64,000 bases of DNA from Clostridiales bacterium (GTDB taxonomy: Bacteria; Bacillota; Clostridia; Lachnospirales; WQUN01), in assembly GCA_031287685.1 (NCBI GenBank), contig JAITSQ010000030.1, forward strand, positions 1 to 64,000, given 5' to 3'. Positions within the stretch are counted from its first letter, which is position 1. Each line of letters begins with the position of its first letter. The notes under the pieces are model-generated. The model was not told the origin of the DNA and made no database searches. It saw nothing but the letters and a program-made list of their open reading frames with translations. Below, piece by piece: positions 14,001-57,137 of the stretch. The translations under genes and the position numbers were made by a program.

Positions 14001-15450
14001 CGAGGGGCACGTTTTCAAAGCCGGCACCATCGGCACTCTCGCCGACAAGACCGCCTACGGATACGTCCGGAAATATTCGGACGACAAGGGCCTGTCCCCG
14101 CGCCGGGCGGAGCTTAACCGCCTGAAGGCCGGCTGCACCGGCATAAAGCGCACCACGGGCCAGCACCCCGGCGGGCTTATGATTCTTCCGCGCGGGCGGA
14201 GCATTTACGAGTTCTGCCCCGTGCAGCGGCCCGCCAACGACTCCGGCTCAAGCGTCACCACGACGCATTTCGACTACCACTCGATAAGCGGGCGGCTTCT
14301 GAAGCTTGATATACTCGGGCACGACGTGCCGACGATTATCCGCATGCTCCACGACCTCACCGGCGTCGACCCGACAAAAATCGACTTGGGCGATAAAAGC
14401 GTTATGTCCCTTTTCACCTCCCCGGAGGCGCTGGGCGTTTCCGCCGAGGATATAAACTGCCGCACCGGCTCGCTGGGCCTGCCGGAATTCGGCACGGGCT
14501 TCGTCCGCCAGATGCTCCTGGACACGCGGCCGAACAGCTTCGCGGAGCTTGTGCGCATTTCCGGGCTTTCCCACGGCACGGACGTATGGCTCAACAACGC
14601 GCAGGATTTCATAAAACGCGGCGACGCCACGCTCAAGACCATCATCCCTACGCGGGACGACATTATGATTTTCTTGATTCACAGCGGCCTGCCGAAAAAG
14701 ACAGCCTTTAAGATAATGGAGAACGTGCGCAAGGGCAAGGGCCTGCCGCCCGAGCAGGAGGAGGAAATGCGGGAGCGCGGCGTCCCGGAGTGGTATATTG
14801 AGTCGTGCAAAAAAATAAAGTACCTCTTCCCGAAAGGGCACGCCGTCGCCTACGTTATGATGAGCGTCCGCATCGGGTGGTACAAGGTGTACGAGCCGCT
14901 GGCGTTCTACGCGGCCACTTTTTCGACCCGCGCGGCGGATTTTGATTATGAGACCATGTGCTTCGGGCGGGAAAAGGCCGCGGCGGAGCTTCGCCGGCTG
15001 GCCTCCCTTGCCGCGGACGCGGCCACGGCCAAGGACAAGGCCACGCAGACCACTCTCGAGCTTGTGGTGGAAATGTACGCGCGCGGGCTTAAATTCGCGC
15101 CGATTGACCTTTACCGCGCCGACGCCTCAAAATTCACCGTGACGGAGGCGGCTTTTTCGGCAGGCATTAGTGCCGAAAAAACGCCGAGCACGGAGGCGGC
15201 TTTTTTGGGCGGCAGCAAGCGCGAAAAAACGCCGAGCACGGGCGGCGCGATTATGGCCCCGCTGTGCGCCATACCGGGGCTGGGCGGCGCGGCGGCCCAG
15301 AGCGTAACCGCGGCGCGGGAAAACGGCGAGTTCGCCACGATAGAGGATTTCGCCAACCGGACAAAGGTCAACAAAACCGTGCTCGACATAATGCGCAAAT
15401 CCGGCGTGTTCGGCGGTATGAGCGAGACGAACCAGCTGACGCTGTTTTAG
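11023..15450 (+). CDS. polC: DNA polymerase III alpha subunit, Gram-positive PolC type
   Basis: A 1475-aa replicative polymerase with built-in proofreading. In order: PolC N-terminal domain, OB fold (EDAVVCGSVLSFDARATKTGQW, about 240-330), PHP domain (HLHTQMSAMDATNSFSDY, from about 341; ALTDHGVVQAFPEA), inserted DnaQ-like exonuclease (VFDLETTGLKP, about 427; HNASFDAGFI; HRAADDA), a zinc-binding stretch (CPEC...CPACGAP, about 912-947) and the polymerase palm with DIDLNFSGEYQ (about 967). It ends NQLTLF, as PolC proteins do. Residues about 1374-1405 are two 16-residue repeats (TEAAF...EKTPS) coming from two 48-bp palindromic-repeat units inserted in frame between FTV and GGAIMAPLCAIPGLG. Without them the length is close to the usual 1440. 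The TAG stop is shared with the end of the element at 15448. Confidence 0.95.
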   Translation: MDAAPFTRVFSFIKPELAGELFEAFEGASVASVSVDRRGRLTVNMESRDVIREDALDALGPLLRGSLDGVTGVEINLRHTGPLDLPALWANALWLLSRESPLCGEILRGASFSFGEASVTVGISGAERDVFSEKRADKYIEEFLSRRAGRNIAVKLGAADKDDGGKPAPEPAADAERRERLIRAVERAMAETPAPSERPERRAQPRKYQGQGQNPRKSLKITDRLKPSDASPLSSPFEDGEDAVVCGSVLSFDARATKTGQWLIITADITDSTDSITIKFFARPHEEDELRELFTPKNFLTLKGAAKFDSYSGEISVAPEEATLCAPPDDARADGAPVKRVELHLHTQMSAMDATNSFSDYARQAARFGHKAIALTDHGVVQAFPEAMSCARKYGLKVLYGVEAYLVDDLAAVVTSGRGQSLDCETVVFDLETTGLKPEFCKIIEIGAVRLKNGEITEEFSTFVDPEEPIPASITDLTGITGAMVKRAPKAGEALKAFLAFAGEAALAAHNASFDAGFISFHAKKHGLEVKNTVIDTLGLSRALFPELKKHKLNLVAEHLGVPLKNHHRAADDAAAAAGILRKCAELLKKEGVQTLEGLNVRAARNIDHRKLQRRHAVILVKNQAGIRNLYELVSIAHLQRFYKKPLIAKSDFIRLREGLLIGSACEAGEFYKAVLENAPEPVLRSLLSFYDYLEIQPTGNNMYLVRDGIVPSAEALRDINRRIIEWGREAGKPVVATGDVHFLNKEDEVFRRVILYGEGFKDADLQPPLYYRTTEEMLAEFDYLGPEAAEEVVIRAPNRIADMIEEVKPIPDGTFPPEIEGAEEQIREMAETRAKELYGDPLPPPVGERLQRELDSIIKNGFSVMYLIAQKLVQKSVSDGYLVGSRGSVGSSFAATMAGITEVNPLSPHYVCPECRFSDFDSEEVRAFAGGSGCDMPDKTCPACGAPLAKEGHDIPFETFLGFDGDKEPDIDLNFSGEYQARAHAYTEELFGEGHVFKAGTIGTLADKTAYGYVRKYSDDKGLSPRRAELNRLKAGCTGIKRTTGQHPGGLMILPRGRSIYEFCPVQRPANDSGSSVTTTHFDYHSISGRLLKLDILGHDVPTIIRMLHDLTGVDPTKIDLGDKSVMSLFTSPEALGVSAEDINCRTGSLGLPEFGTGFVRQMLLDTRPNSFAELVRISGLSHGTDVWLNNAQDFIKRGDATLKTIIPTRDDIMIFLIHSGLPKKTAFKIMENVRKGKGLPPEQEEEMRERGVPEWYIESCKKIKYLFPKGHAVAYVMMSVRIGWYKVYEPLAFYAATFSTRAADFDYETMCFGREKAAAELRRLASLAADAATAKDKATQTTLELVVEMYARGLKFAPIDLYRADASKFTVTEAAFSAGISAEKTPSTEAAFLGGSKREKTPSTGGAIMAPLCAIPGLGGAAAQSVTAARENGEFATIEDFANRTKVNKTVLDIMRKSGVFGGMSETNQLTLF
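15142..15237 (+). repeat. Two in-frame 48-bp palindromic-repeat units inside polC
   Basis: Unit 1 (15142-15189) has stem TTTTTCGGCA/TGCCGAAAAA and unit 2 (15190-15237) has CTTTTTTGGGCGG...GCGCGAAAAAAC. Both share GGAGGCGGCTTTTT and AAAAAACGCCGAGC with intergenic copies at 16787 and 57036. Each unit is 48 bp, so 16 codons are added per unit. Confidence 0.85.
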
Positions 15451-15785: not shown

Positions 15786-16786
<1,001 letters not shown>

Positions 16787-17020
16787 GGCAAGAAGGCGGC
16801 TTTTTCGGCGGGCATTAGCGCCGAAAAAACACCGGGCAAGAAAGCGGCTTTTTGGCGGGGAGGCGCCAAAAAACGCTGAGCAAGAAAGTGGCTTTTTGCG
16901 GGGAACCGCCAAAAAACACCGGTCATTAGGCGCGTTTTGGGCGACGCTTAAAGCCTATTTTCAAGAAGGGGGCTTGAGATTGTCTAAATCTTTTCAGACA
17001 ATCTCAAACACCGCGCAAGT
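16787..17020. repeat. Palindromic repeats, three tandem units plus one
   Basis: Three tandem units from 16787 to 16925 share CAAGAA(A)GNGGCTTTTT and AAAAAACNCNGNGCAAG but have different stems (CGGCGGGC/GCGCCG; GGCGGGGAGGCGCC; GCGGGGAACCGC). After a gap a fourth unit at 16962-17020 has stem GAGATTGTCTAAA/CAGACAATCTC. Confidence 0.85.
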
Positions 17021-17066: not shown

Positions 17067-17855
17067 CTAAATCGTATACTCGGGCTGCGGCTGGGCGCTT
17101 GCCAAATGCAGTTTTTCCAATATTTGGCGGCGGATTCCCAAAAATTCCGCTCCGCCCCTGTGACGGGGGCGAGGGATTTTTATTTCCATAATTTCACTTA
17201 TTTTCCCCGGGCGCGGCGTCATAATGACTATCCGGTCGGAGAGGTAAATCGCCTCGTCCGCGTCGTGCGTCACGAGAATCATAGTCGCGCCGCGCTCCCG
17301 CCGAAGCTCCAAAAGTTTATCCTGAATATCGGCGCGGGTGAAGGAGTCGAGCGCGCCCATAGGCTCGTCAAGAAGCAGCACCTCCGGGGAGTTTATGAGC
17401 GCGCGGGCGATAGCCACTCTTTGCGCCATGCCGCCGCTTATTTGGTGCGGAAACGCCCGCTCGAAGCCCTCCAGGCCGATAAGCCCTATATAGCGCGGGA
17501 TTAAAGCCTTATTCTCCTTATAAACGCCCCGCGCCCGAAGCCCGAACGCTATGTTGTCATAAACCGTGAGCCAGGGAAACAGCGCGCCCTGCTGAACGAC
17601 GTAGCCCCGAGAGGGGTCCGCGTCCAGTATTTCGCGCCCGCCGAGGGTCAGCGCCCCCGCCTCGGGTTTGTCCAGCCCGCCTATGAGCCGGAGGAGCGTC
17701 GTCTTGCCGCAGCCCGACGAGCCGATAATCGAGACGAATTCGCCCTTTTGAACGGAGAGGCTCACGTCGCGAAGCGCCTCCACGACGTTTCCCTTATCGT
17801 CCGTATATGTCCTGCTCACGCCGCTCACTTCAAGAACTATTTCGGCGCCGCTCAT
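17067..17855 (-). CDS. NitT/TauT-type ABC transporter ATP-binding protein
   Basis: A 262-aa ABC ATPase of the nitrate/sulfonate/taurine class (SsuB/TauB-like). Walker A is GSSGCGKTTLLRL, the signature is ISGGMAQRVAIARAL, Walker B is VLLLDEPMGALDSFTR, and the H-loop is LVTHDADEAIYLSDR. It overlaps the upstream permease gene by 4 bp, so the two are translationally coupled. Position inside an operon with a sulfhydrylase and a nitrogenase-like enzyme suggests import of an organosulfur substrate, but the class also carries other oxyanions and heterocycles. Confidence 0.92.
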   Translation of the reverse strand: MSGAEIVLEVSGVSRTYTDDKGNVVEALRDVSLSVQKGEFVSIIGSSGCGKTTLLRLIGGLDKPEAGALTLGGREILDADPSRGYVVQQGALFPWLTVYDNIAFGLRARGVYKENKALIPRYIGLIGLEGFERAFPHQISGGMAQRVAIARALINSPEVLLLDEPMGALDSFTRADIQDKLLELRRERGATMILVTHDADEAIYLSDRIVIMTPRPGKISEIMEIKIPRPRHRGGAEFLGIRRQILEKLHLASAQPQPEYTI

Positions 17856-18859
17856 CGTTTCACCAGCCCCTTTCTCCAGCGAAGCACCCGGCCTTCAATC
17901 AGAGACATCACTTTCATAATCAAGGAGAACACCGCCGCCATTACGATTATCGCGGCGAAAACCTTATAATAAGCCGACCAAACCTTGCTCGCGTTGATAT
18001 AATAACCCAGGCCGCCCGGCTGCCCCATCATCTCCGCCATAACGAGCGTCGTGAAGGCGAAAGCGTTCGCGGTGGTGATTCCCGTGAAAATCTGCGGCAT
18101 GGCGTGAGGTACGGCCACGTGAAACACGAGGCAGGCGGTGTTCGCCCCAAGGGTTCGCGCCACCTCGAACTGCGTCCGCGGGACGCTCGACACGCCCTGC
18201 GCCGTGAGTGATGCCACGGGAAACCACGCGCAAATCACGATAAGGAAAGCCGCCGCCGAAAACGGCGTGGGGAAAAGCGTCAGCGCGAACGGCATCCACG
18301 CCACGGCGGGGATTACGCCCGTGATTTTCAGAATCGGATAGACCCAATAATAAACCTTCGGAAACCACCCTATTAAAATCCCCGTGCCCACTCCTAGCAG
18401 CACCCCGAGTATAAACCCGGCGGCAAACAGCCTAAGGGAATAGAGCGTGTTTTTCCCGATATACCCGCCCTCCGCGAGGAACGCCTCAATAATCCGCGCC
18501 GGCCCGGGGAAAAACGGCTGCGGCAGGAGCAGATATTTCGTTCCCAAAACATCCCACGCGCCGAGAGCGCAGCCCAGAACCGCGCGGAACGGGGCTTTGG
18601 CCGCGAACTTCGCCCGCCGCTCCGTCTTAAAGAACGCCGCCGCCGCGCCGATTAAATAAAGCAGGATGAGCGCGAGCAGGACAAGGCGGTACGCGCCGTT
18701 TATATCGAGCGTCACGGAGCCGACCGTATATGAGTTTATTTGAACGTCCGCAGCCTGCGGAACGAGCAGGTTTACGGCGGCCGCCGCCGCGAACCCTCCC
18801 GCCGTCAGAACCGCCGCGAGGGCGAGGCGCGTATTTGAAATATTTTTCCGTTCGTTCAA
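17852..18859 (-). CDS. NitT/TauT-type ABC transporter permease
   Basis: A 335-aa inner membrane permease (SsuC/TauC-like). The binding-protein-dependent transport domain occupies the C-terminal two thirds, with the coupling motif EVARTLGANTACLVF followed by AVPHAMPQIFTG. The protein is longer than the usual 250-270 aa because the N-terminus has two extra hydrophobic segments (LALAAVLTAGGFAAAAAVNLL and RLVLLALILLYLIGAAAAFF). The start is a TTG at 18859 with GGGAGG upstream. It overlaps the ATPase gene at its 3' end and is preceded by the lipoprotein gene. Confidence 0.9.
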   Translation of the reverse strand: MNERKNISNTRLALAAVLTAGGFAAAAAVNLLVPQAADVQINSYTVGSVTLDINGAYRLVLLALILLYLIGAAAAFFKTERRAKFAAKAPFRAVLGCALGAWDVLGTKYLLLPQPFFPGPARIIEAFLAEGGYIGKNTLYSLRLFAAGFILGVLLGVGTGILIGWFPKVYYWVYPILKITGVIPAVAWMPFALTLFPTPFSAAAFLIVICAWFPVASLTAQGVSSVPRTQFEVARTLGANTACLVFHVAVPHAMPQIFTGITTANAFAFTTLVMAEMMGQPGGLGYYINASKVWSAYYKVFAAIIVMAAVFSLIMKVMSLIEGRVLRWRKGLVKR

Positions 18860-18971: not shown

Positions 18972-20084
18972 TTATTCTCCCAGCGTCAAGTCCACTTTTT
19001 GATACGCCTTCGCCGTAAAATCCTCCGGGTCCGTTTTAAGATAGCCGATGTCGTGCAGCTGCGTGGCGAAGTACAAAACGTCCGCGCCCACGTCCCGGGT
19101 ATTCATCGCGTGCTCGCTCTCCGTGGGATACTCGTAATGACCGAGAAGCTGAGCCGCCAATTCCTCGTCCTCAATGGCCGAATACTTCCCGTCGATTATG
19201 ATTTTCACCGCTTCCTCGGGGTTTTCGGCGATCCAGTCCTGCGCCTTATGATACGCGCGGAGCAAAGCGGCTATTTCGTCGGGCTTCTCCTCCGCGATTT
19301 TCCCCGAGGCGTAGAGGAAGCAGCAGTACCGCCCAGCGAAAGGCTCGTCTGTGGAAATATCAAGGATTACTTTATAATTCCCCGTTTTTTCCTGAACGGA
19401 GCCGAATGGGTCCCAAACGGCGGCGACGTCGATTTCCCCTTTATTGAGGGCTTCGATTTCAAGGTTGCCGTCGTCGAAAGGCAGGAACTGCACCTCTCCG
19501 TCGGCGGGCTTCGCGGAAATTCCGTTCTTTTCGAGCCATACCGCCGCTACCTGGTGCGGCGTCCCGCCGATTTCGTCAACGCCGACTTTTTTGCCTTTAA
19601 GGTCATTTACGCCGCTTATCGCCGAATCCTTCGGCACAAGGAGCTTAATGCAGCCGTTGTGGAGCCCGTCCACAACTTTCATGTTTACGCCCTCCTCAAT
19701 GGACGGAAAAAACTGAAAATCTCCGTTGACGATAGGTATCGTTCCGTTCGACAGGCCGAGTTTGCTGTTCTCCGCGTTTGAGGAAATGAGCGTAACGTCA
19801 AAGCCCTCCTCCGCGAAAAAGCCTTTTTCGTAAGCAATATAGGTCGGGGCGTTGCAAAGCGAGCCGACTTTCCCGGGAATATCGACTTTGCCGTATTTAT
19901 AATCCGCCGAAGAAGAACCGGCGGGGGGCGCCTCTCGCGCCTCCGTTTGGGCCTCGCCCGCCCGGGTGTCGTCCGCCCCGCCCGGGGCGGGGCTTTGGCT
20001 CGGCTTCGGGGTGCACCCCGCCAGAAGCGACGCGGCCAAGGCGGCGCCCGCCGCGAGGTTTATGACGCGTTTAAGGTTTATCAT
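18972..20084 (-). CDS. ABC transporter substrate-binding lipoprotein (SsuA/NMT1-like)
   Basis: A 370-aa lipoprotein. The signal peptide ends in the lipobox LLAGC (Cys24), followed by a Pro/Gly/Ala-rich linker. The mature part has the periplasmic-binding fold II pattern of the sulfonate/nitrate/thiamine-precursor group: KVDIPGKVGSLCNAPTYIAYEKGFFAEEGFDV..., LKGKKVGVDEIGGTPHQVAAVW, AVWDPFGSVQEKTG (text split here at the comma). The binding pocket cannot be read with confidence. It lies directly after the sulfhydrylase gene. AGAGGAGA precedes the ATG. It should deliver the substrate to the permease/ATPase pair downstream. Confidence 0.88.
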   Translation of the reverse strand: MINLKRVINLAAGAALAASLLAGCTPKPSQSPAPGGADDTRAGEAQTEAREAPPAGSSSADYKYGKVDIPGKVGSLCNAPTYIAYEKGFFAEEGFDVTLISSNAENSKLGLSNGTIPIVNGDFQFFPSIEEGVNMKVVDGLHNGCIKLLVPKDSAISGVNDLKGKKVGVDEIGGTPHQVAAVWLEKNGISAKPADGEVQFLPFDDGNLEIEALNKGEIDVAAVWDPFGSVQEKTGNYKVILDISTDEPFAGRYCCFLYASGKIAEEKPDEIAALLRAYHKAQDWIAENPEEAVKIIIDGKYSAIEDEELAAQLLGHYEYPTESEHAMNTRDVGADVLYFATQLHDIGYLKTDPEDFTAKAYQKVDLTLGE

Positions 20085-20117: not shown

Positions 20118-21428
20118 TTAATATAAACCCAGGCCCGCCGCCCGGAACGCCTGTTCCAAATCGGCTATTAAGTCCGCCGAATCCTCAAGCCCCGCCGAAA
20201 TTCTTATAAGGTTCTCGGGAATGTCCGCGGCCTCTTTTTCGCGAGGCTCAAGTTCGCCGTGAGTGGTCTGCGGCGAGTTGACGATAAGGCTCTTGGAATC
20301 GCCTATGTTGACGTGATAATGAAAAAGCCGCACCGAGTTAAGGAACTTCTCGCGCTCCTCCCGCGTTCCCTTAAAGCCGAACGCGAGCACGCCGCCCGCG
20401 CCCCTCGGGAAATCGCGGCGGAAAAGCTCTCCCTGCCGGCCCTCGGCGAGCTTCGGATAGCGCACCCATTCAACGCGCTCGTGATTTTTCAAGTATTCCG
20501 CGAGGCTCTCCGCGTTCCCGACCTGTTTGGCGAGCCGCTCCGAAAGGGTTTCCAGCCCGATTATCGCGAGATACGCGTCGAACGGCCCGAGAGCCGCGCC
20601 GAAATAATTCAGGAAATTGAAGCGGAGCCGCGCCGTGAACGGATTTTCGGGGAAAACGTCAAGGAACGACCTGAGGTTCCCCTCCGCGTCCCGCAGAGTA
20701 TAATACTTTTCGTCAAAGTGCGCGAATTTCTCAGTTTTCCAGTTAAACCGCCCCGCTTCGAGGACAAGCCCCGCGATAAGGTTTCCGTGCCCGTTTAAGC
20801 CCTTCGTCGCGCTGTATATAACTATGTCCGCGCCGTGGGCTATGGGGTTGTAAAGATACGGAGTGGCGACAGTATTGTCCACCACAAGCGGAATCCCGTG
20901 TTTATGCGCGGCTTCGGCGATCGCGTCAATATCAAGAAGGAACGTGTTCGGGTTGCTCACGCTTTCGATATATATAGCCTTCGTGTCGGGTTTTATCTCC
21001 TCCGCGAGTTTGTCCGGGTCAAAGAGGTTCCGCGCCCAGTCGAAGCTAATCCCGAATTTCGGATAAATTTTCTTGAAACTGTCCGCGCTCCCTCCGTAGA
21101 GATACGGGCTGGTGAGAATCCGCCCGCCGCCCTCGGCAAGGTTCAGCAGCGTATAGCTCACCGCCGCCATGCCCGAGGAGAGAGCAATCGCGCCCGACGC
21201 GCCGTCCAGCGCCTTTACGCGCTCCTCCAAAACCGCCACGGTGGGGTTGCCCACGCGGGTGTAGAGGAAGCCCGCCTCCCGAAGCCCGAACAGCGCGGCG
21301 GCGTTTTCCACGTCGCGGAAATCATACGCCGCCGTCTGATAAATCGGGGGTGAAACGGCGTATTTATGGTCCTTCGGCTCGTAGCCCGCCCGCACTTTCT
21401 TTGTGTCAAAACCGTATTCCTGTGACAT
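20118..21428 (-). CDS. O-acetylhomoserine sulfhydrylase (PLP-dependent)
   Basis: A 436-aa Cys/Met-metabolism PLP enzyme of the O-acetyl-L-homoserine sulfhydrylase group. It joins O-acetylhomoserine with sulfide to give homocysteine, or with methanethiol to give methionine. The PLP lysine is in YSATKGLNGHGN (Lys209), with substrate and cofactor motifs FLYTRVGNPT, SSGMAA, SNPNTFLLDID and DNTVATPYL. The start is the ATG at 21428 (MSQEYGFDTKKVRAG) with AAGGGG upstream; an in-frame extension up to 21557 is only translated palindromic repeats. It sits inside the nitrogenase-like operon, directly after the NifB-like gene, which ties that enzyme to sulfur or methanethiol assimilation. Confidence 0.93.
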   Translation of the reverse strand: MSQEYGFDTKKVRAGYEPKDHKYAVSPPIYQTAAYDFRDVENAAALFGLREAGFLYTRVGNPTVAVLEERVKALDGASGAIALSSGMAAVSYTLLNLAEGGGRILTSPYLYGGSADSFKKIYPKFGISFDWARNLFDPDKLAEEIKPDTKAIYIESVSNPNTFLLDIDAIAEAAHKHGIPLVVDNTVATPYLYNPIAHGADIVIYSATKGLNGHGNLIAGLVLEAGRFNWKTEKFAHFDEKYYTLRDAEGNLRSFLDVFPENPFTARLRFNFLNYFGAALGPFDAYLAIIGLETLSERLAKQVGNAESLAEYLKNHERVEWVRYPKLAEGRQGELFRRDFPRGAGGVLAFGFKGTREEREKFLNSVRLFHYHVNIGDSKSLIVNSPQTTHGELEPREKEAADIPENLIRISAGLEDSADLIADLEQAFRAAGLGLY

Positions 21429-21468
21429 AAATTTTCCCCTTTCCGTCATCTTTAACGCCGCCCCCGCC

Positions 21469-21620
21469 AAAAAGCCCCCTTCTTGCTCGGTGTTTTGGCC
21501 CCCCTCCGGCGGCTCAAAGCCGCCTTCTTGCTCGGTGTTTTGAGTTGCCTCCGGCAACTCAAAGCCCCCTTCTTGCTCGGTGTTTTGGCCCCCCTCCGGC
21601 GGCTCAAAGCCGCCTTCTTA
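21469..21620. repeat. Palindromic repeats, three tandem units
   Basis: Three tandem units between the NifB-like and sulfhydrylase genes, reading CTTCTTGCTCGGTGTTTT as the constant part. Units 1 and 3 are identical (stem GGCCCCCCTCCGGCGGCTC region) and the middle one has stem GAGTTGCCTCCGGCAACTC. The array touches the stop of the NifB-like gene. Confidence 0.85.
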
Positions 21621-22493
21621 CCCATGCGAGAAGGTATTTTCCGCGCTCACGGCGCGGCTGTAAATCTCTTTCGAGAAGTCCTCGCCGCCCAAAGTTCCCG
21701 CCGCGTCGGCGCGGCACCTCTGACAGTGCCTGAAAACGCGGATATGCTTCTCCGCGTCCGTCCGCGCCCGGTTTATCAAATTACAGCCGGGCGCGGAACA
21801 ATGCGCCAGATTATGCTGCGGAATCAGCGGGATTATGTTATAGATTTTCGCGCCAAGCCGCGAAACGGTCTCCGCGATGGTCTCGATATGCGCCGCGTTG
21901 ATTTCTGGGATAAGCACGGTGTTAATTTTCACCGTAACTCCCGCCCTCGCGACCCGCTCAATCCCCGCGAGCTGATTTTTTATGAGAATCTCCGCGCCCT
22001 CTCGGCCGAAGAACCGGCGCTCCCCGTAAAAAACGCTTTCGCATATTTCCGCCTGTATCCCGGGTTCAACGGCGTTCACCGTGACGGTCAGGCTGTCCAC
22101 GCCGGCCTCGATTATTTCGCCCGCTTTCTCGGGGAGAAGCAGCCCGTTTGTGCTCATACACTTAATCATCTTCGGGAACTCCCGCCCGACGAGGCGGAAG
22201 GTCTCGAGCGCGTAAGGCGTGACGAGCGCGTCGCCCGGCCCCGCCACTCCGGCCACGGTTATGCCGGGACATCGCTCGACCGCCCGGCGGACGGCTTCGA
22301 GCGCTTCCTCGGGCGTTATAACCGCGGAGGCAACCCCCGGGCGGTTTTCGCCGCTGTTTATGTCTCGGCGGCAGAAGTTGCAGTTTATGTTGCAGCCCGG
22401 GCTTACGGGCAGGTGAATCCGCCCTTTATTGCTCTTCGCCCCCGTCGAGAAGCAGGGGTGGGAAAGCGTCAGTTCGTTAAAAGCCGCCGCCAT
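21618..22493 (-). CDS. NifB-like radical SAM cofactor-assembly protein
   Basis: A 291-aa radical SAM protein with the NifB pattern: HPC at residues 12-14, the SAM-cluster motif CNINCNFC (Cys34, Cys38, Cys41), CRRDINSGENRPGV, AGVAGPGDAL, CMSTNGLLLP, and near the end HNLAHCSAPGC and HCQRCRADAAGTLGG. NifB fuses two [4Fe-4S] clusters with insertion of carbide to build the NifB-cofactor. The usual C-terminal NifX domain is absent, but a NifX-like protein is encoded just upstream and overlaps it by 17 bp. Its presence implies that the D-like subunit receives a complex Fe-S cofactor, not a simple cluster. Confidence 0.92.
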   Translation of the reverse strand: MAAAFNELTLSHPCFSTGAKSNKGRIHLPVSPGCNINCNFCRRDINSGENRPGVASAVITPEEALEAVRRAVERCPGITVAGVAGPGDALVTPYALETFRLVGREFPKMIKCMSTNGLLLPEKAGEIIEAGVDSLTVTVNAVEPGIQAEICESVFYGERRFFGREGAEILIKNQLAGIERVARAGVTVKINTVLIPEINAAHIETIAETVSRLGAKIYNIIPLIPQHNLAHCSAPGCNLINRARTDAEKHIRVFRHCQRCRADAAGTLGGEDFSKEIYSRAVSAENTFSHG

Positions 22494-22818
22494 TTTCCCC
22501 GCCCTCCTTCATTTCAGCGAGGCGGGCTATGATTGCCTCAACCTCGCCCTCCGCCTCAAAAACGCGTTTCCCCCTGCTTATCATAAACGCCGCCGCGCCC
22601 TCGCCTATTTTCAGGACGAATACCGCGCCGCAGTCCTCCACGGCGGCTAAAATACGCTCAAACCCGCCGTCGCAGGAACCCGCGCACGTCGGTTCGGTTC
22701 TGCGCGCCTCCACGAAGGTCCCGCCGTTTTCGTTTATGTCGTAAATCCGCCAGTATCTCGCCCGCCCGAAATGCTGGTCCACCCTGGTTCCGTCGATGCT
22801 CGCGAAAGCGGCCCGCAT
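22477..22818 (-). CDS. NifX-like iron-sulfur cofactor-binding protein
   Basis: A 113-aa member of the dinitrogenase iron-molybdenum cofactor family (NifX/NafY or NifB C-terminal domain). The typical opening is seen: FASIDGTRVDQHFGRARYWRIYDI (given as FASIDGTRVDQHFGRA then RYWRIYDI), followed by CAGSC and GAVFVLKIGEGAA, where a GxGA cofactor-site turn is expected. It probably carries the cofactor from the NifB-like protein to the D/K component. It lies between the K-like and NifB-like genes with a GGGGGG ribosome site. Confidence 0.88.
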   Translation of the reverse strand: MRAAFASIDGTRVDQHFGRARYWRIYDINENGGTFVEARRTEPTCAGSCDGGFERILAAVEDCGAVFVLKIGEGAAAFMISRGKRVFEAEGEVEAIIARLAEMKEGGENGGGF

Positions 22819-22830
22819 TACGCCCCCCTC

Positions 22831-24177
22831 TTATTTATACGTCGCCAAGACGTTATGATAAATATCTTCAATCACCCGCAGCCCGCCCGAGAAGCCCGCG
22901 TAATTCGTGGTCATCACCAGGCGGTAAGGCGTGGGCGCGGCGGCCGACAGGAAGTCGCAGCCTTTTTCCCTCGCCAGCTCTTTGTCCCACCCCGAGCCGA
23001 TTATAAGCCCGCGCCCCGCGTGCGAAACGCCGCGCAAAAACTCCTGCGCCTTGCCCGCGTCAGGTTCAAAGAAAACGGGGATTTCTCGCTTCTCCGACGT
23101 TTCCGCTATGTTCCGGCGGATGTTTTCCTGAAACCGTTCGGGCGTTCCGTCCGTGACAAACTGTTCCTTCGGGACAATGCCCGCTTCATGGAGCAGGAAC
23201 TTCGAGAGCGCCGCGACATACCCCGCGTCGTGCAGGATATGCGCGTGGTTCGGCAGGCCGTAGCGAAATTCCAGGAGGAAAGTCGCCAAATTGTCGATTT
23301 CCTCATAATAAGCGTCGGAGCTGTGTTTTATAAACCCCCGCGCCGCCGCTTCGTCAATCTCCGCGCCGTTTTCAAGGGCGAAGGCGGCGACTTGCTTCAA
23401 AAACGCCTCGGTCTGGTTCGCGCCTATCGGGATATGCGGGAACCACGTATACGGCTGGCCGTACTTCGCTTTCAGCCGGTCCGCAACCGGCTTTCCGTGC
23501 CAGGGGGAGGCGAGCACGTTGAAATTCGCGGCCGGGATTTTCCGCCATTGCGCGACCCCGCCCGACTCCGGGCCGAACAGCACGTTGGCGCGCAGCCCCA
23601 GCCCCGCCAAAAGCCGCTTATACTCAAATAAATTCCCTTTCCAAAACGGGTCCTGATAAGGAAGGGAGGCAAGCAAATTGACGGTGTTTTTTTCGCTTCT
23701 CGGCGCGTTCTCCTCCTCGAAAAGGCTCACGTACTGGTCTATAATGGCGTTCACGACAAGGCTGTGCGCCTCGAAATTCGTCGCCTTAAAGCCCGCGGTC
23801 TCAACGGAGACTATGGGCTTGCCCTCGTCGCGGAACTCGCTCACGACGCTCTCCACGTCGTCCCCGACAATTCCCGAGGTGCAGCCCGTAAGGACTACCT
23901 GCAAATCAGTTTTGAGAACCTTGTACGTATTTTCTATAATTTGGCGGAGCTTGCCGGCCCCGCCGAAGACAACCTCTTTTTCGCTGAAATTAGTGCAAGG
24001 GGAGGTGTTTCCGCCCGCGTAACCCGTGCTCCGCTCGAAAAACCCTTGAATCATTTCGCCGCAGCCAGGCCCGCTGTGCAAAATCGGAACCGCCCTCGGA
24101 ATCGCCACAACGCTTTGAAGCGCGCCTATCGCGCAAGTATAGCGCTCCTGCTCAATTATTCCGCTTGCTTTGCTCAT
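22831..24177 (-). CDS. Nitrogenase-like component 1, beta (K-like) subunit
   Basis: A 448-aa protein of the nitrogenase component 1 superfamily. Three Cys fit P-cluster ligands: Cys15 (ERYTCAIGALQS), Cys39 (LHSGPGCGEM) and Cys99 (VVLTGCTSGIVGDDVES). The spacings of 24 and 60 residues agree with NifK (25 and 58). It is shorter than typical NifK (about 520 aa) and lacks the long N-terminal arm, as in many nitrogenase-like enzymes. It contains GPESGGVAQW and a C-terminal GYAGGLR-like stretch (NYAGFSGGLRVIEDIY). It overlaps the D-like gene by 4 bp, so the subunits are made in equal amounts. Expected form is an alpha2beta2 tetramer. Confidence 0.9.
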   Translation of the reverse strand: MSKASGIIEQERYTCAIGALQSVVAIPRAVPILHSGPGCGEMIQGFFERSTGYAGGNTSPCTNFSEKEVVFGGAGKLRQIIENTYKVLKTDLQVVLTGCTSGIVGDDVESVVSEFRDEGKPIVSVETAGFKATNFEAHSLVVNAIIDQYVSLFEEENAPRSEKNTVNLLASLPYQDPFWKGNLFEYKRLLAGLGLRANVLFGPESGGVAQWRKIPAANFNVLASPWHGKPVADRLKAKYGQPYTWFPHIPIGANQTEAFLKQVAAFALENGAEIDEAAARGFIKHSSDAYYEEIDNLATFLLEFRYGLPNHAHILHDAGYVAALSKFLLHEAGIVPKEQFVTDGTPERFQENIRRNIAETSEKREIPVFFEPDAGKAQEFLRGVSHAGRGLIIGSGWDKELAREKGCDFLSAAAPTPYRLVMTTNYAGFSGGLRVIEDIYHNVLATYK

Positions 24178-25676
24178 TTGCCCGCTCCCCCCTGAACCGC
24201 CTGAATCCCCGCGCCGCCCTGAAGGAAATAGTGCGGCTCCTGCTCAAGCCACCAGTCGGTATACGGGTTGACCGAGTGTTCCCTGAGGTTTTTGACGAAC
24301 TCGTCGTTTTCTATGGCGTCCAGAAGGCGCTCGCCATAGTTGATTATTCCTTCATAGCCCATGCCGTGGTGCTCGTCGCCGATAAGCAGGCTCGGGATTC
24401 CGAGTTTCGCGCCCCAGAGGGTCATTCCGCCGTGCCGCGCGAGAAGCACGTCCGGGCGGATTTTGTTCAGCGCGTTCACCAGCTCGAACTCCTGTTTGTT
24501 GCACACGTTGAAATTCGGGACGCTCCCGTAGTCCCGGACGCGCTGCGCGAGCTGGTCGTTTTCCTCGCGCCCGCTGTCGTAGACGGGGTCGTGGTGGAAA
24601 ATCGCCGCGCCCACGGCGTTCAGACCGAGTTCGCCGCAAAGGTCGAGCAGGGCGTGCCCGTGCGCCGCGCCCGCCGTGACGTAGGCGGTTTTCCCCTCAA
24701 GTTTCCCGCGTAATTCCTCGATTCTGGGGATAAACTTCTCCTTTTTCTCGGCTATCACCTTTTCAGCGGCTTCCTCCTTGCCCAAAAGTTTGCCGAGGGC
24801 GCGGAACCAGCGGTCCGTTTGGGCTATGCCGTAAGGCGGCGCGGACGGCAATTCCGGAACTCCGAAGTCTTGCTCGAGCACCGCGCCGAGATAGCTCCCG
24901 AGCGTCGAGCAAGCCTGCACCGTAGCGGCGGCTTCGCTCGAATAAGCCAGGCTTTCCGTCGTCGAGTACGGCGTGATGTAATTCGGCTTTGCCCCGAACG
25001 GAGCGAACCAATCCTTGAAAACGTCGCTCCCCCAGAAATTTATCACGTTTATAACGTCCGCCCTGCGCTCCCGCGGCGGTTTTATGAGCTTACGGGCTAT
25101 GCCGTGGTAAGCCGCGTCGAAGCCCGTCGTCCAAACCTTCGAGCGGAAGCCCTCGCAGAATATCGGAACTATCGGAACGCCCAGCTCCTCCTCGGCCTCC
25201 TCGCATACGCTCTCCACGTCGTCGCCGATTATCCCCGCCGCGCACGTCGTGAGGACAAAAATGGCGTTCGCGCCCGTCCGCTCCCGAACTTCGCGTATCG
25301 CGGCGGCAAGTTTGACCGCGCCGCCGTAGACCGTGTCCTTTTCCTGTAAATTCGTGGAAAAAATCCTGCGCGGCGCGGGCTTTTCCACTCCGCGAAGCGG
25401 CGAGTTGACCCGGTAGGTAAAGGCGAACTCGTGCAGACAAGCGGCGCAGCCTACAGGCCCGTGGCTTATCACCGCTCCGTCCTGAATAAGAACCGTCATA
25501 CAAGCCGCTTTCGACGTGGAGCAGCCCAAACATTGCGAAAACGAGCGGTTCTTGTCCTTCAGCCCGCGGGGCGACGCGGAGACCAGCTCTTCCGCGTCGC
25601 CCTGATAACCCGTGATTGAGTTTATTCTGATTTCCCGAATCCGCACGGCCGGCAGAGATAAATTAACCTTCGGCAT
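24174..25676 (-). CDS. Nitrogenase-like component 1, alpha (D-like) catalytic subunit
   Basis: A 500-aa D-like subunit. P-cluster candidates are Cys52 (SQCLGCSTSKAAC), Cys77 (ISHGPVGCAACLHEF) and Cys145 (LTTCAAGIIGDDVES), spaced as in NifD. A Cys at about 256 (VQACSTLGSYLG) and His436/His437 (IGDEHHGMGYEG) fall where NifD binds its active-site cofactor through Cys275 and His442. The start is the ATG at 25676, since AGGGGGC lies 8 bp upstream; an ATG 21 bp further upstream lacks such a site. It is the first gene of the operon. Without NifE/N genes or a VnfG/AnfG gene the locus does not look like a standard Mo, V or Fe nitrogenase. A methylthio-alkane reductase-like role is my preferred reading. 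Confidence 0.9.
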   Translation of the reverse strand: MPKVNLSLPAVRIREIRINSITGYQGDAEELVSASPRGLKDKNRSFSQCLGCSTSKAACMTVLIQDGAVISHGPVGCAACLHEFAFTYRVNSPLRGVEKPAPRRIFSTNLQEKDTVYGGAVKLAAAIREVRERTGANAIFVLTTCAAGIIGDDVESVCEEAEEELGVPIVPIFCEGFRSKVWTTGFDAAYHGIARKLIKPPRERRADVINVINFWGSDVFKDWFAPFGAKPNYITPYSTTESLAYSSEAAATVQACSTLGSYLGAVLEQDFGVPELPSAPPYGIAQTDRWFRALGKLLGKEEAAEKVIAEKKEKFIPRIEELRGKLEGKTAYVTAGAAHGHALLDLCGELGLNAVGAAIFHHDPVYDSGREENDQLAQRVRDYGSVPNFNVCNKQEFELVNALNKIRPDVLLARHGGMTLWGAKLGIPSLLIGDEHHGMGYEGIINYGERLLDAIENDEFVKNLREHSVNPYTDWWLEQEPHYFLQGGAGIQAVQGGAGK

Positions 25677-25728
25677 AAAAACGCCCCCTATAAGCATCCG
25701 TAGCTAAATACGCCGCAATCTCATATAT

Positions 25729-52130: not shown

Positions 52131-52497
52131 ATTAGTGCCGAAAAATCGCCGGGCAAGAAGGCGGCTTTTTCGGCGGGCCAACTTGCTCGGTGTTTTGGAT
52201 TGTCTAAAAAGATTTAGACAATCCAAAGCCCCCTTCTTGGCCGCCCGGTTTTAACCCGGAGACGCGTTTAGGTTTTGCGCGGCTTTAGGCGCAAAACTTG
52301 CGTCGGAGGGCCGGCAAGCGAGGCTTGCGAGAGGGCAGCAGCGCCGAAAAAACGCCGATAAGAAGGTGGCTTTTTCGGCAGGCATTAGTGCCGAAAAAAC
52401 GCCGATTTTAGGCCGTTTTTCGCGAAGAAGGGGGCTTTCATTTGTCTAAACTTGCTTTAGACAAATGAAAACACCGAGCAACGCCGACAGTCCACGA
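52131..52497. repeat. Dense palindromic repeat cluster
   Basis: Five or more units in series: stems TTTTTCGGCAGGC..GTGCCGAAAAA, TTGGATTGTCTAAA/TTTAGACAATCC, the large nested palindrome CCCGGTTTTAACCCGG...TTGCGTCGGAGGGCC shared with 49895-49985, again TTTTTCGGCAGGCATTAGTG, and TTCATTTGTCTAAA/TTTAGACAAATGAA. They are joined by the constant AAGAAGG and CACCGAGCAA flanks. Confidence 0.8.
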
Positions 52498-57035: not shown

Positions 57036-57137
57036 GCAAGAAGGCGGCTTTTTTGGCGGGCATTAGCGCCGAAAAAACGCCGAGCAAGAAGGCGGCTTTT
57101 TTGGCGGGCATTAGCGCCGAAAAAACGCCGAGCAAGT
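57036..57137. repeat. Two perfect 48-bp tandem palindromic-repeat units
   Basis: Identical units start at 57036 and 57084 and a third begins at 57132 before diverging. Each has GCAAGAAGGCGGCTTTTTT, stem GGCGGGCATTAGCGCC, AAAAAACGCCGA. The unit length equals that of the two units inside polC. Confidence 0.9.

Follow-up and report, generated by a model that had tools for sequence, protein, structure and literature searches.

Does a pair of nitrogenase-like genes without a dedicated cofactor scaffold encode an odd nitrogenase or an enzyme of another kind? The question is raised by two adjacent genes, for a D- and a K-like subunit, on the minus strand of the window, by which we mean the whole 64,000-nucleotide stretch of contig JAITSQ010000030.1 (Clostridiales bacterium, assembly GCA_031287685.1). 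The original prediction, made from the letters alone, placed an L-cluster-like all-iron cofactor in the active site, delivered from NifB through NifX. We find that D and K are members of the superclade of methylthio-alkane reductase (MAR; MarBHDK of Rhodospirillum rubrum), and they probably form an L-cluster C-S bond reductase that serves sulfur assimilation in this gut-type anaerobe, a close cousin of MAR and not a nitrogenase. The locus thus no longer reads as an odd nitrogenase but as a nitrogenase-like sulfur enzyme of wide distribution, from a large clade, sister to MAR proper, in which the substrate pocket is altered throughout.

Both reading frames are open and intact, with PF00148 scores of 296 (D) and 204 (K) bits. 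D shares 41% sequence identity with R. rubrum MarD (417 bits, E 7e-124), the next solved protein scoring 131 bits, and K scores 377 bits against MarK, with the next solved protein at 63 bits. In these alignments K Cys15/39/99 correspond to MarK Cys32/56/121 and D Cys52/77/145 to MarD Cys66/91/158, the six cysteines that hold the P-cluster in the MAR structure (PMC12552129). MarD Cys270, which binds Fe1 of the [Fe8S9C] cluster (PMC12552129), has D Cys256 as its counterpart. The cysteine assignments of the original prediction are thus confirmed by alignment. With E-values of 1e-111 to 1e-124, chance is of no concern for the ligand positions. Conservation was counted in 80 window-clade, 14 MAR-proper and 8 Chlorohelix-type D sequences; Cys52, Cys77, Cys145 and Cys256 are invariant across all 80, and Trp195, Phe199 and His375 of MarD are kept in D.

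The histidine ligand had been misplaced, at D His436/437. NifD His442, which we take to be the His of the HSWDY motif, aligns near D Ile432/Gly433, 3-5 residues before this pair. The position of His436 is Gln in 7 of the 8 Chlorohelix-type sister-group sequences, and that of His437 is His in a single clade member and Phe, Tyr, Ala or Leu in the other 79. Besides the cysteine, the MAR cofactor is bound by His429, which follows Arg428 on a loop that nitrogenases lack, the pair being proposed as a MAR hallmark (PMC12552129). Cross-clade conservation and the MAR structure paper together rule out His436/437, and the corresponding loop I pair is D Arg414-His415, with Arg in 80/80 and His in 79/80 of the window clade and His also in 14/14 MAR-proper and 8/8 Chlorohelix-type sequences. 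The sole clade member with Pro at the His415 position (L076) lies on a short contig and may reflect a sequencing error or a pseudogene.

Fold and phylogeny lead to the same placement. An AlphaFold2 model of D, built with 30 clade and MAR sequences (predicted local distance difference score 81, predicted template-modelling score 0.82), matches MarD 9fmg_A with Z 49.1 and a root-mean-square deviation of 2.0 Å over 465 residues; Foldseek agrees, and the best structural match outside MAR reaches Z 32. In a maximum-likelihood tree of 67 rows, which did not include isethionate reductase (Isr) sequences, the window clade (28 rows) and MAR proper (12 rows, including R. rubrum) are separate groups, each with 100/100 support. 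Chlorohelix-type proteins join the window side (98/97), and the window side and MAR proper are united at 100/99, apart from NifD. The six P-cluster cysteines, Cys270, the loop I Arg-His pair, the fold, the tree and the NifB maturase all make D/K a member of the MAR superclade, within which the tree places the window proteins as a sister clade of MAR proper rather than inside it. The window's bacterial family also has another D-like clade (L096, L099, L100, L102 (12692), L104 and L106), in which all six D Cys positions of P-cluster type, as well as Cys270, are preserved and loop I carries a lone His, not Arg-His.

The resemblance to R. rubrum MAR (9fmg, 9d9u; PMC12552129) extends over the DK architecture, the six P-cluster cysteines, Cys270, loop I Arg428-His429, Trp195, Phe199, His375, the NifB-type maturase and a sulfur assimilation context; our literature search found no paper describing PDB 9d9u. 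Besides its separate clade and 41% identity, the window system has an Fe protein of NifH rather than MarH type, a separate NifX gene, an SsuABC importer and no MtnA/Ald2 route, and two pocket residues are changed, Gln74 to Met and His194 to Val. MarD His194, Trp195 and His375 surround the belt sulfide S2B and are candidates for substrate recognition and proton transfer (PMC12552129). Some genomes carry both types: in two Pectinatus isolates, L041 (7084-12845) and L059 (7078-12743), a MAR-proper DK pair comes first, a window-type DK pair with MetY stands immediately after it, and CysK and an Ssu-type importer lie upstream; a relative known from a metagenome-assembled genome of 77% completeness (G001) also has true MAR and the window type (L108, L109). 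This co-occurrence argues for different substrates or roles without proving them. The replaced Gln74 and His194, and the true MAR present alongside in some genomes, make it probable that the window enzyme acts on a substrate other than that of R. rubrum MAR. As the cluster ligands are unchanged, the changes at MarD positions 74 and 194 offer a clean comparison for substrate choice on [Fe8S9C]. As a separate observation, a Treponema saccharophilum plasmid (pTS2, L092) and a Chlorohelix plasmid (L091) each hold two DK pairs, MAR-like or nitrogenase-like and different from each other, accompanied by NifB/NifX/NifH and adjoined by transposases or CRISPR genes.

That the window enzyme is nevertheless a functional equivalent of MAR, converting dimethyl sulfide, ethyl methyl sulfide or methylthio-ethanol to methanethiol and a hydrocarbon, seems to us a tentative and on the whole unlikely reading. 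The shared fold and cluster ligands, the conservation of Trp195, Phe199, His375 and loop I, and the adjacent MetY, which would turn methanethiol into methionine, speak for it. It has to contend with the separate clade, the replacement of Gln74 and His194 in 80/80 sequences, the presence of true MAR alongside in Pectinatus and G001, the absence of the dihydroxyacetone phosphate shunt genes MtnA and Ald2, and an importer that suggests a charged, non-volatile substrate.

The sulfur context recurs across the clade, whose DK genes are common among gut and rumen Clostridia and Treponema. In a rough count over 44 long clade loci (genes were called with a simple open-reading-frame caller, and some loci extend only a short way on one side), we found MetY in 39, NifH in 37, NifB in 34, NifX in 34, CysK in 32 and an SsuC permease in 23. 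The MetY/CysK neighbourhood fits an enzyme that sets free a thiol or sulfide from which methionine or cysteine is made. For anaerobic Firmicutes, MarHDK-like 'group IV-A' genes near type I mlp clusters and beside sulfur and methionine genes including MetY were described in 2023 (PMC10418091). That group may include the window clade, the label being one that could not be matched to window-clade sequences; the description covers genome context only, and we recognised no corrinoid methyltransferase gene in the window operon.

An import system of this type would also suit a sulfonate reductase with a role like that of Isr, in which SsuABC imports a sulfonate, sulfite is released, and the genome's sulfite reductase supplies sulfide to MetY/CysK. 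We consider this reading doubtful, at the lower end of what could be called unlikely. The operon and roughly half of the clade loci contain SsuABC-type genes, Isr functions with SsuCAB (PMC11423573), and an AsrC-like sulfite reductase (NIR_SIR) lies beside a CysN-like gene elsewhere in the genome. The argument that sulfonates are excluded by lack of a sulfite reductase consequently fails, and a sulfonate substrate stays in consideration. IsrBHDK of Rhodobacter capsulatus (PMC11423573) likewise combines nitrogenase-like HDK genes with a radical SAM gene and an SsuCAB importer for sulfur assimilation. However, IsrD lacks two P-cluster cysteines and both cofactor ligands, and IsrB is not NifB-like, whereas the window D keeps all its cysteines and its NifB is 47% identical to a solved homologue. 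We therefore reject identity with Isr, and the nearest characterised enzyme, MAR, cuts thioethers.

Several points weigh against a C-S bond reductase of the MAR kind. The Fe protein is closer to NifH than to MarH, being 77% identical to C. pasteurianum NifH and scoring 466.7 bits against that protein (1cp2) as against 280.4 bits for MarH 9fmg_D, a comparison by score and without a tree of H proteins. The importer is of sulfonate type and fits poorly with volatile thioethers. Family searches of the window genome detected neither MtnA nor class II aldolase (Ald2, Aldolase_II), so the genome does not encode the pathway by which R. rubrum turns methylthioadenosine into methylthio-ethanol, and we rejected a methylthio-ethanol supply of that type. 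The ligands in D are placed by alignment and fold scores, not by distances. A literature search, which key subscription papers fell outside, returned no report of an activity or substrate for any window-clade member.

The supply of the cofactor bears on the remaining readings. We searched the whole genome (1.88 Mb, 97% complete, 0% contamination) by family. Its PF00148 matches are D and K only, without nifE or nifN; there is no AnfG/VnfG delta subunit and no NifV above the curated cut-off. The absences noted in the window thus hold genome-wide, and the predicted NifB- and NifX-like proteins are indeed encoded, NifB by a single gene. In three further genomes reached by way of clade loci, those of the isolate Eubacterium oxidoreducens and two other Clostridia, PF00148 likewise matches exactly two genes each. 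NifE above the curated cut-off occurs in only 4 of 48 genomes with window-type DK, and 44 are without it, so the absence of NifEN is normal for this clade. Nine Cys/His ligand positions of NifB are invariant in 60/60 aligned rows and Cys237 is kept in 59/60; the score of 259.5 bits against the NCBIfam nifB model falls short of the 343.65 cut-off, probably because a NifX domain is part of the model.

Missing NifEN alone is no proof of an L-cluster, since the Roseiflexus nitrogenase makes the iron-molybdenum cofactor (FeMo-co) without NifEN (PMC11573651). The assignment rests more on homology to MAR, for which P- and [Fe8S9C]-clusters and the absence of Mo, V and homocitrate were established in 2025 by cryo-electron microscopy, metal analysis and electron paramagnetic resonance (PMC12552129). 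On the aligned ligands, an all-iron [Fe8S9C] L-cluster in D, without Mo, homocitrate or NifEN, is a well-supported prediction. The original cofactor proposal is thus supported in part, its L-cluster through MAR and not through the histidine it named or the lack of NifEN that it invoked; it recognised neither the enzyme family nor the sulfur context. An L-cluster enzyme without NifEN is not new, as it is already established for the sister enzyme MAR. Delivery of the cluster to D by NifX is plausible from the gene neighbourhood. Many clade loci, among them L043, L044, L046, L058 and others of Ruminococcus type, carry one NifX-like gene before NifB and another after K, and this doubling suggests a second specialised cluster carrier.

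That D/K is a divergent N2-fixing nitrogenase whose cofactor is made without NifEN, on the Roseiflexus pattern, is highly improbable. The Fe protein passes the curated NifH cut-off and NifEN-independent FeMo-co synthesis exists (PMC11573651); in Roseiflexus, as here, NifB and NifH suffice, but that enzyme is a bona fide NifDK that carries FeMo-co with Mo and homocitrate and fixes N2. D, in contrast, groups with MAR far from NifD, and MAR does not reduce N2 (PMC12552129). As in MAR, D has Cys59-Met60, Trp182 and Phe186 in place of NifD Val70, Gln191 and His195. A Mo, V or Fe nitrogenase was rejected on the lack of the NifDKEN set, of NifV above cut-off, of the loop II His442 ligand and of Val70/Gln191/His195. 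Equally far-fetched is a NifEN-like scaffold function for D/K, for although NifEN also holds an [Fe8S9C] L-cluster and the tandem DK pairs of Pectinatus formally resemble nifDK-nifEN, the window genome and three others have a DK pair alone with no client DK, and NifEN belongs to another family (Z 32 against 49 for MAR) with other ligands, the site predicted here being of the buried MAR type.

For the C-S bond reductase that we favour, the following scheme can be drawn. By homology, the NifH-type Fe protein would pass electrons to a P-cluster held by the six cysteines where D and K meet, which would hand them on to an [Fe8S9C] L-cluster with D Cys256 and D His415 as its ligands. NifB would make this cluster, which would reach D without NifEN, Mo or homocitrate, with NifX as the putative carrier. 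The SsuABC-type importer may take in an organosulfur compound, whose C-S bond D/K would cut reductively, and O-acetylhomoserine sulfhydrylase, in relatives also CysK, may capture the freed thiol or sulfide. Taking this further, we see an even chance that the window clade is a distinct L-cluster enzyme class of gut and rumen anaerobes which reduces a non-MAR organosulfur substrate (imported, charged, possibly a sulfonate or thioether acid), is matured by NifB and NifX alone, and has an Fe protein that forms part of the clostridial 'pseudo-nifH' pool. Genomes that have this DK pair as their only one, a single NifB and no NifEN offer a naturally minimal setting for studying L-cluster transfer from NifB to enzyme.

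The Fe protein also matters for surveys. A 2021 study quantified clostridial pseudo-nifH genes that occur without nifD/nifK (PMC8597730), and the locus supplies a partner enzyme for at least some of them. The window Fe protein passes the NCBIfam NifH cut-off in a genome without nitrogenase and would count as a false diazotroph. At about 77% identity to real NifH, such a protein would mislead nifH-based nitrogen-fixation surveys of guts and sediments, a problem that is already known (PMC8597730).

Coordinates are collected in the table below. Between 25676 (or 25697) and 15786, in the reading direction of the minus strand, the genes are D, K, NifX-like, NifB, O-acetylhomoserine sulfhydrylase, the SsuA-, SsuC- and SsuB-type importer genes and the NifH-type Fe protein.

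Table. Genes of the operon and residues of D discussed in the text, in window positions
Feature	Position	Strand	Details
D subunit, MarD-like catalytic alpha	24174..25676	-	500 aa from ATG at 25676; 507 aa if ATG at 25697
K subunit, MarK-like beta	22831..24177	-	448 aa; E 1.7e-111 to MarK 9d9u/9fmg
NifX/NifB C-terminal-like cofactor-binding protein	22477..22818	-	113 aa; PF02579 77.6 bits; 9ian NifX E 3.7e-5
NifB, radical SAM carbide-inserting maturase without NifX domain	21618..22493	-	291 aa; E 2e-81, 47% to 7jma
O-acetylhomoserine sulfhydrylase (MetY)	20118..21557	-	TIGR01326 448.8 bits (below cut-off 495.1); PF01053 391 bits
SsuA/NMT1-family substrate-binding lipoprotein of ATP-binding cassette (ABC) importer	18972..20084	-	TIGR01728 110.9 bits (below cut-off); PF09084
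SsuC-like ABC permease	17852..18859	-	PF00528
SsuB-like ABC ATPase	17067..17855	-	PF00005; SaoA/NtrCD/TauB-like
Fe protein, NifH-type reductase component	15786..16655	-	TIGR01287 nifH 446.5 bits, over cut-off 394.35
D Met60 codon (MarD Gln74), changed pocket residue	25497..25499	-	M/T/V in 80/80 clade; Q in 14/14 MAR proper
D Val181 codon (MarD His194), changed pocket residue	25134..25136	-	V/M/I in 80/80 clade; H in 14/14 MAR proper
D Cys256 codon (MarD Cys270)	24909..24911	-	Alignment; invariant in 80/80 clade
D Arg414-His415 codons (MarD Arg428-His429, loop I), predicted cofactor His ligand and hydrogen-bonding Arg	24432..24437	-	Ungapped alignment
D His436-His437 codons, pair named in the original prediction, not the MAR ligand	24366..24371	-	Conservation

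Homology to MetY begins about 45 residues into its open reading frame. The operon lies among housekeeping genes (names read from the sequences), ispG and polC to one side and those for fatty-acid synthesis to the other. A repeat of about 45 bp (AAAGCCGCCTTCTTGCTCGGTGTTTTG...) is interspersed in the window, at positions 21471-21619, 15146-15260 and 16794-16860 and also near 52153, 53402 and 57036-57118. It forms a tandem triplicate ahead of metY, and near the C-terminus of PolC it lies in frame and yields a doubled peptide (AEKTPSTEAAFLGGSKREKTPST).

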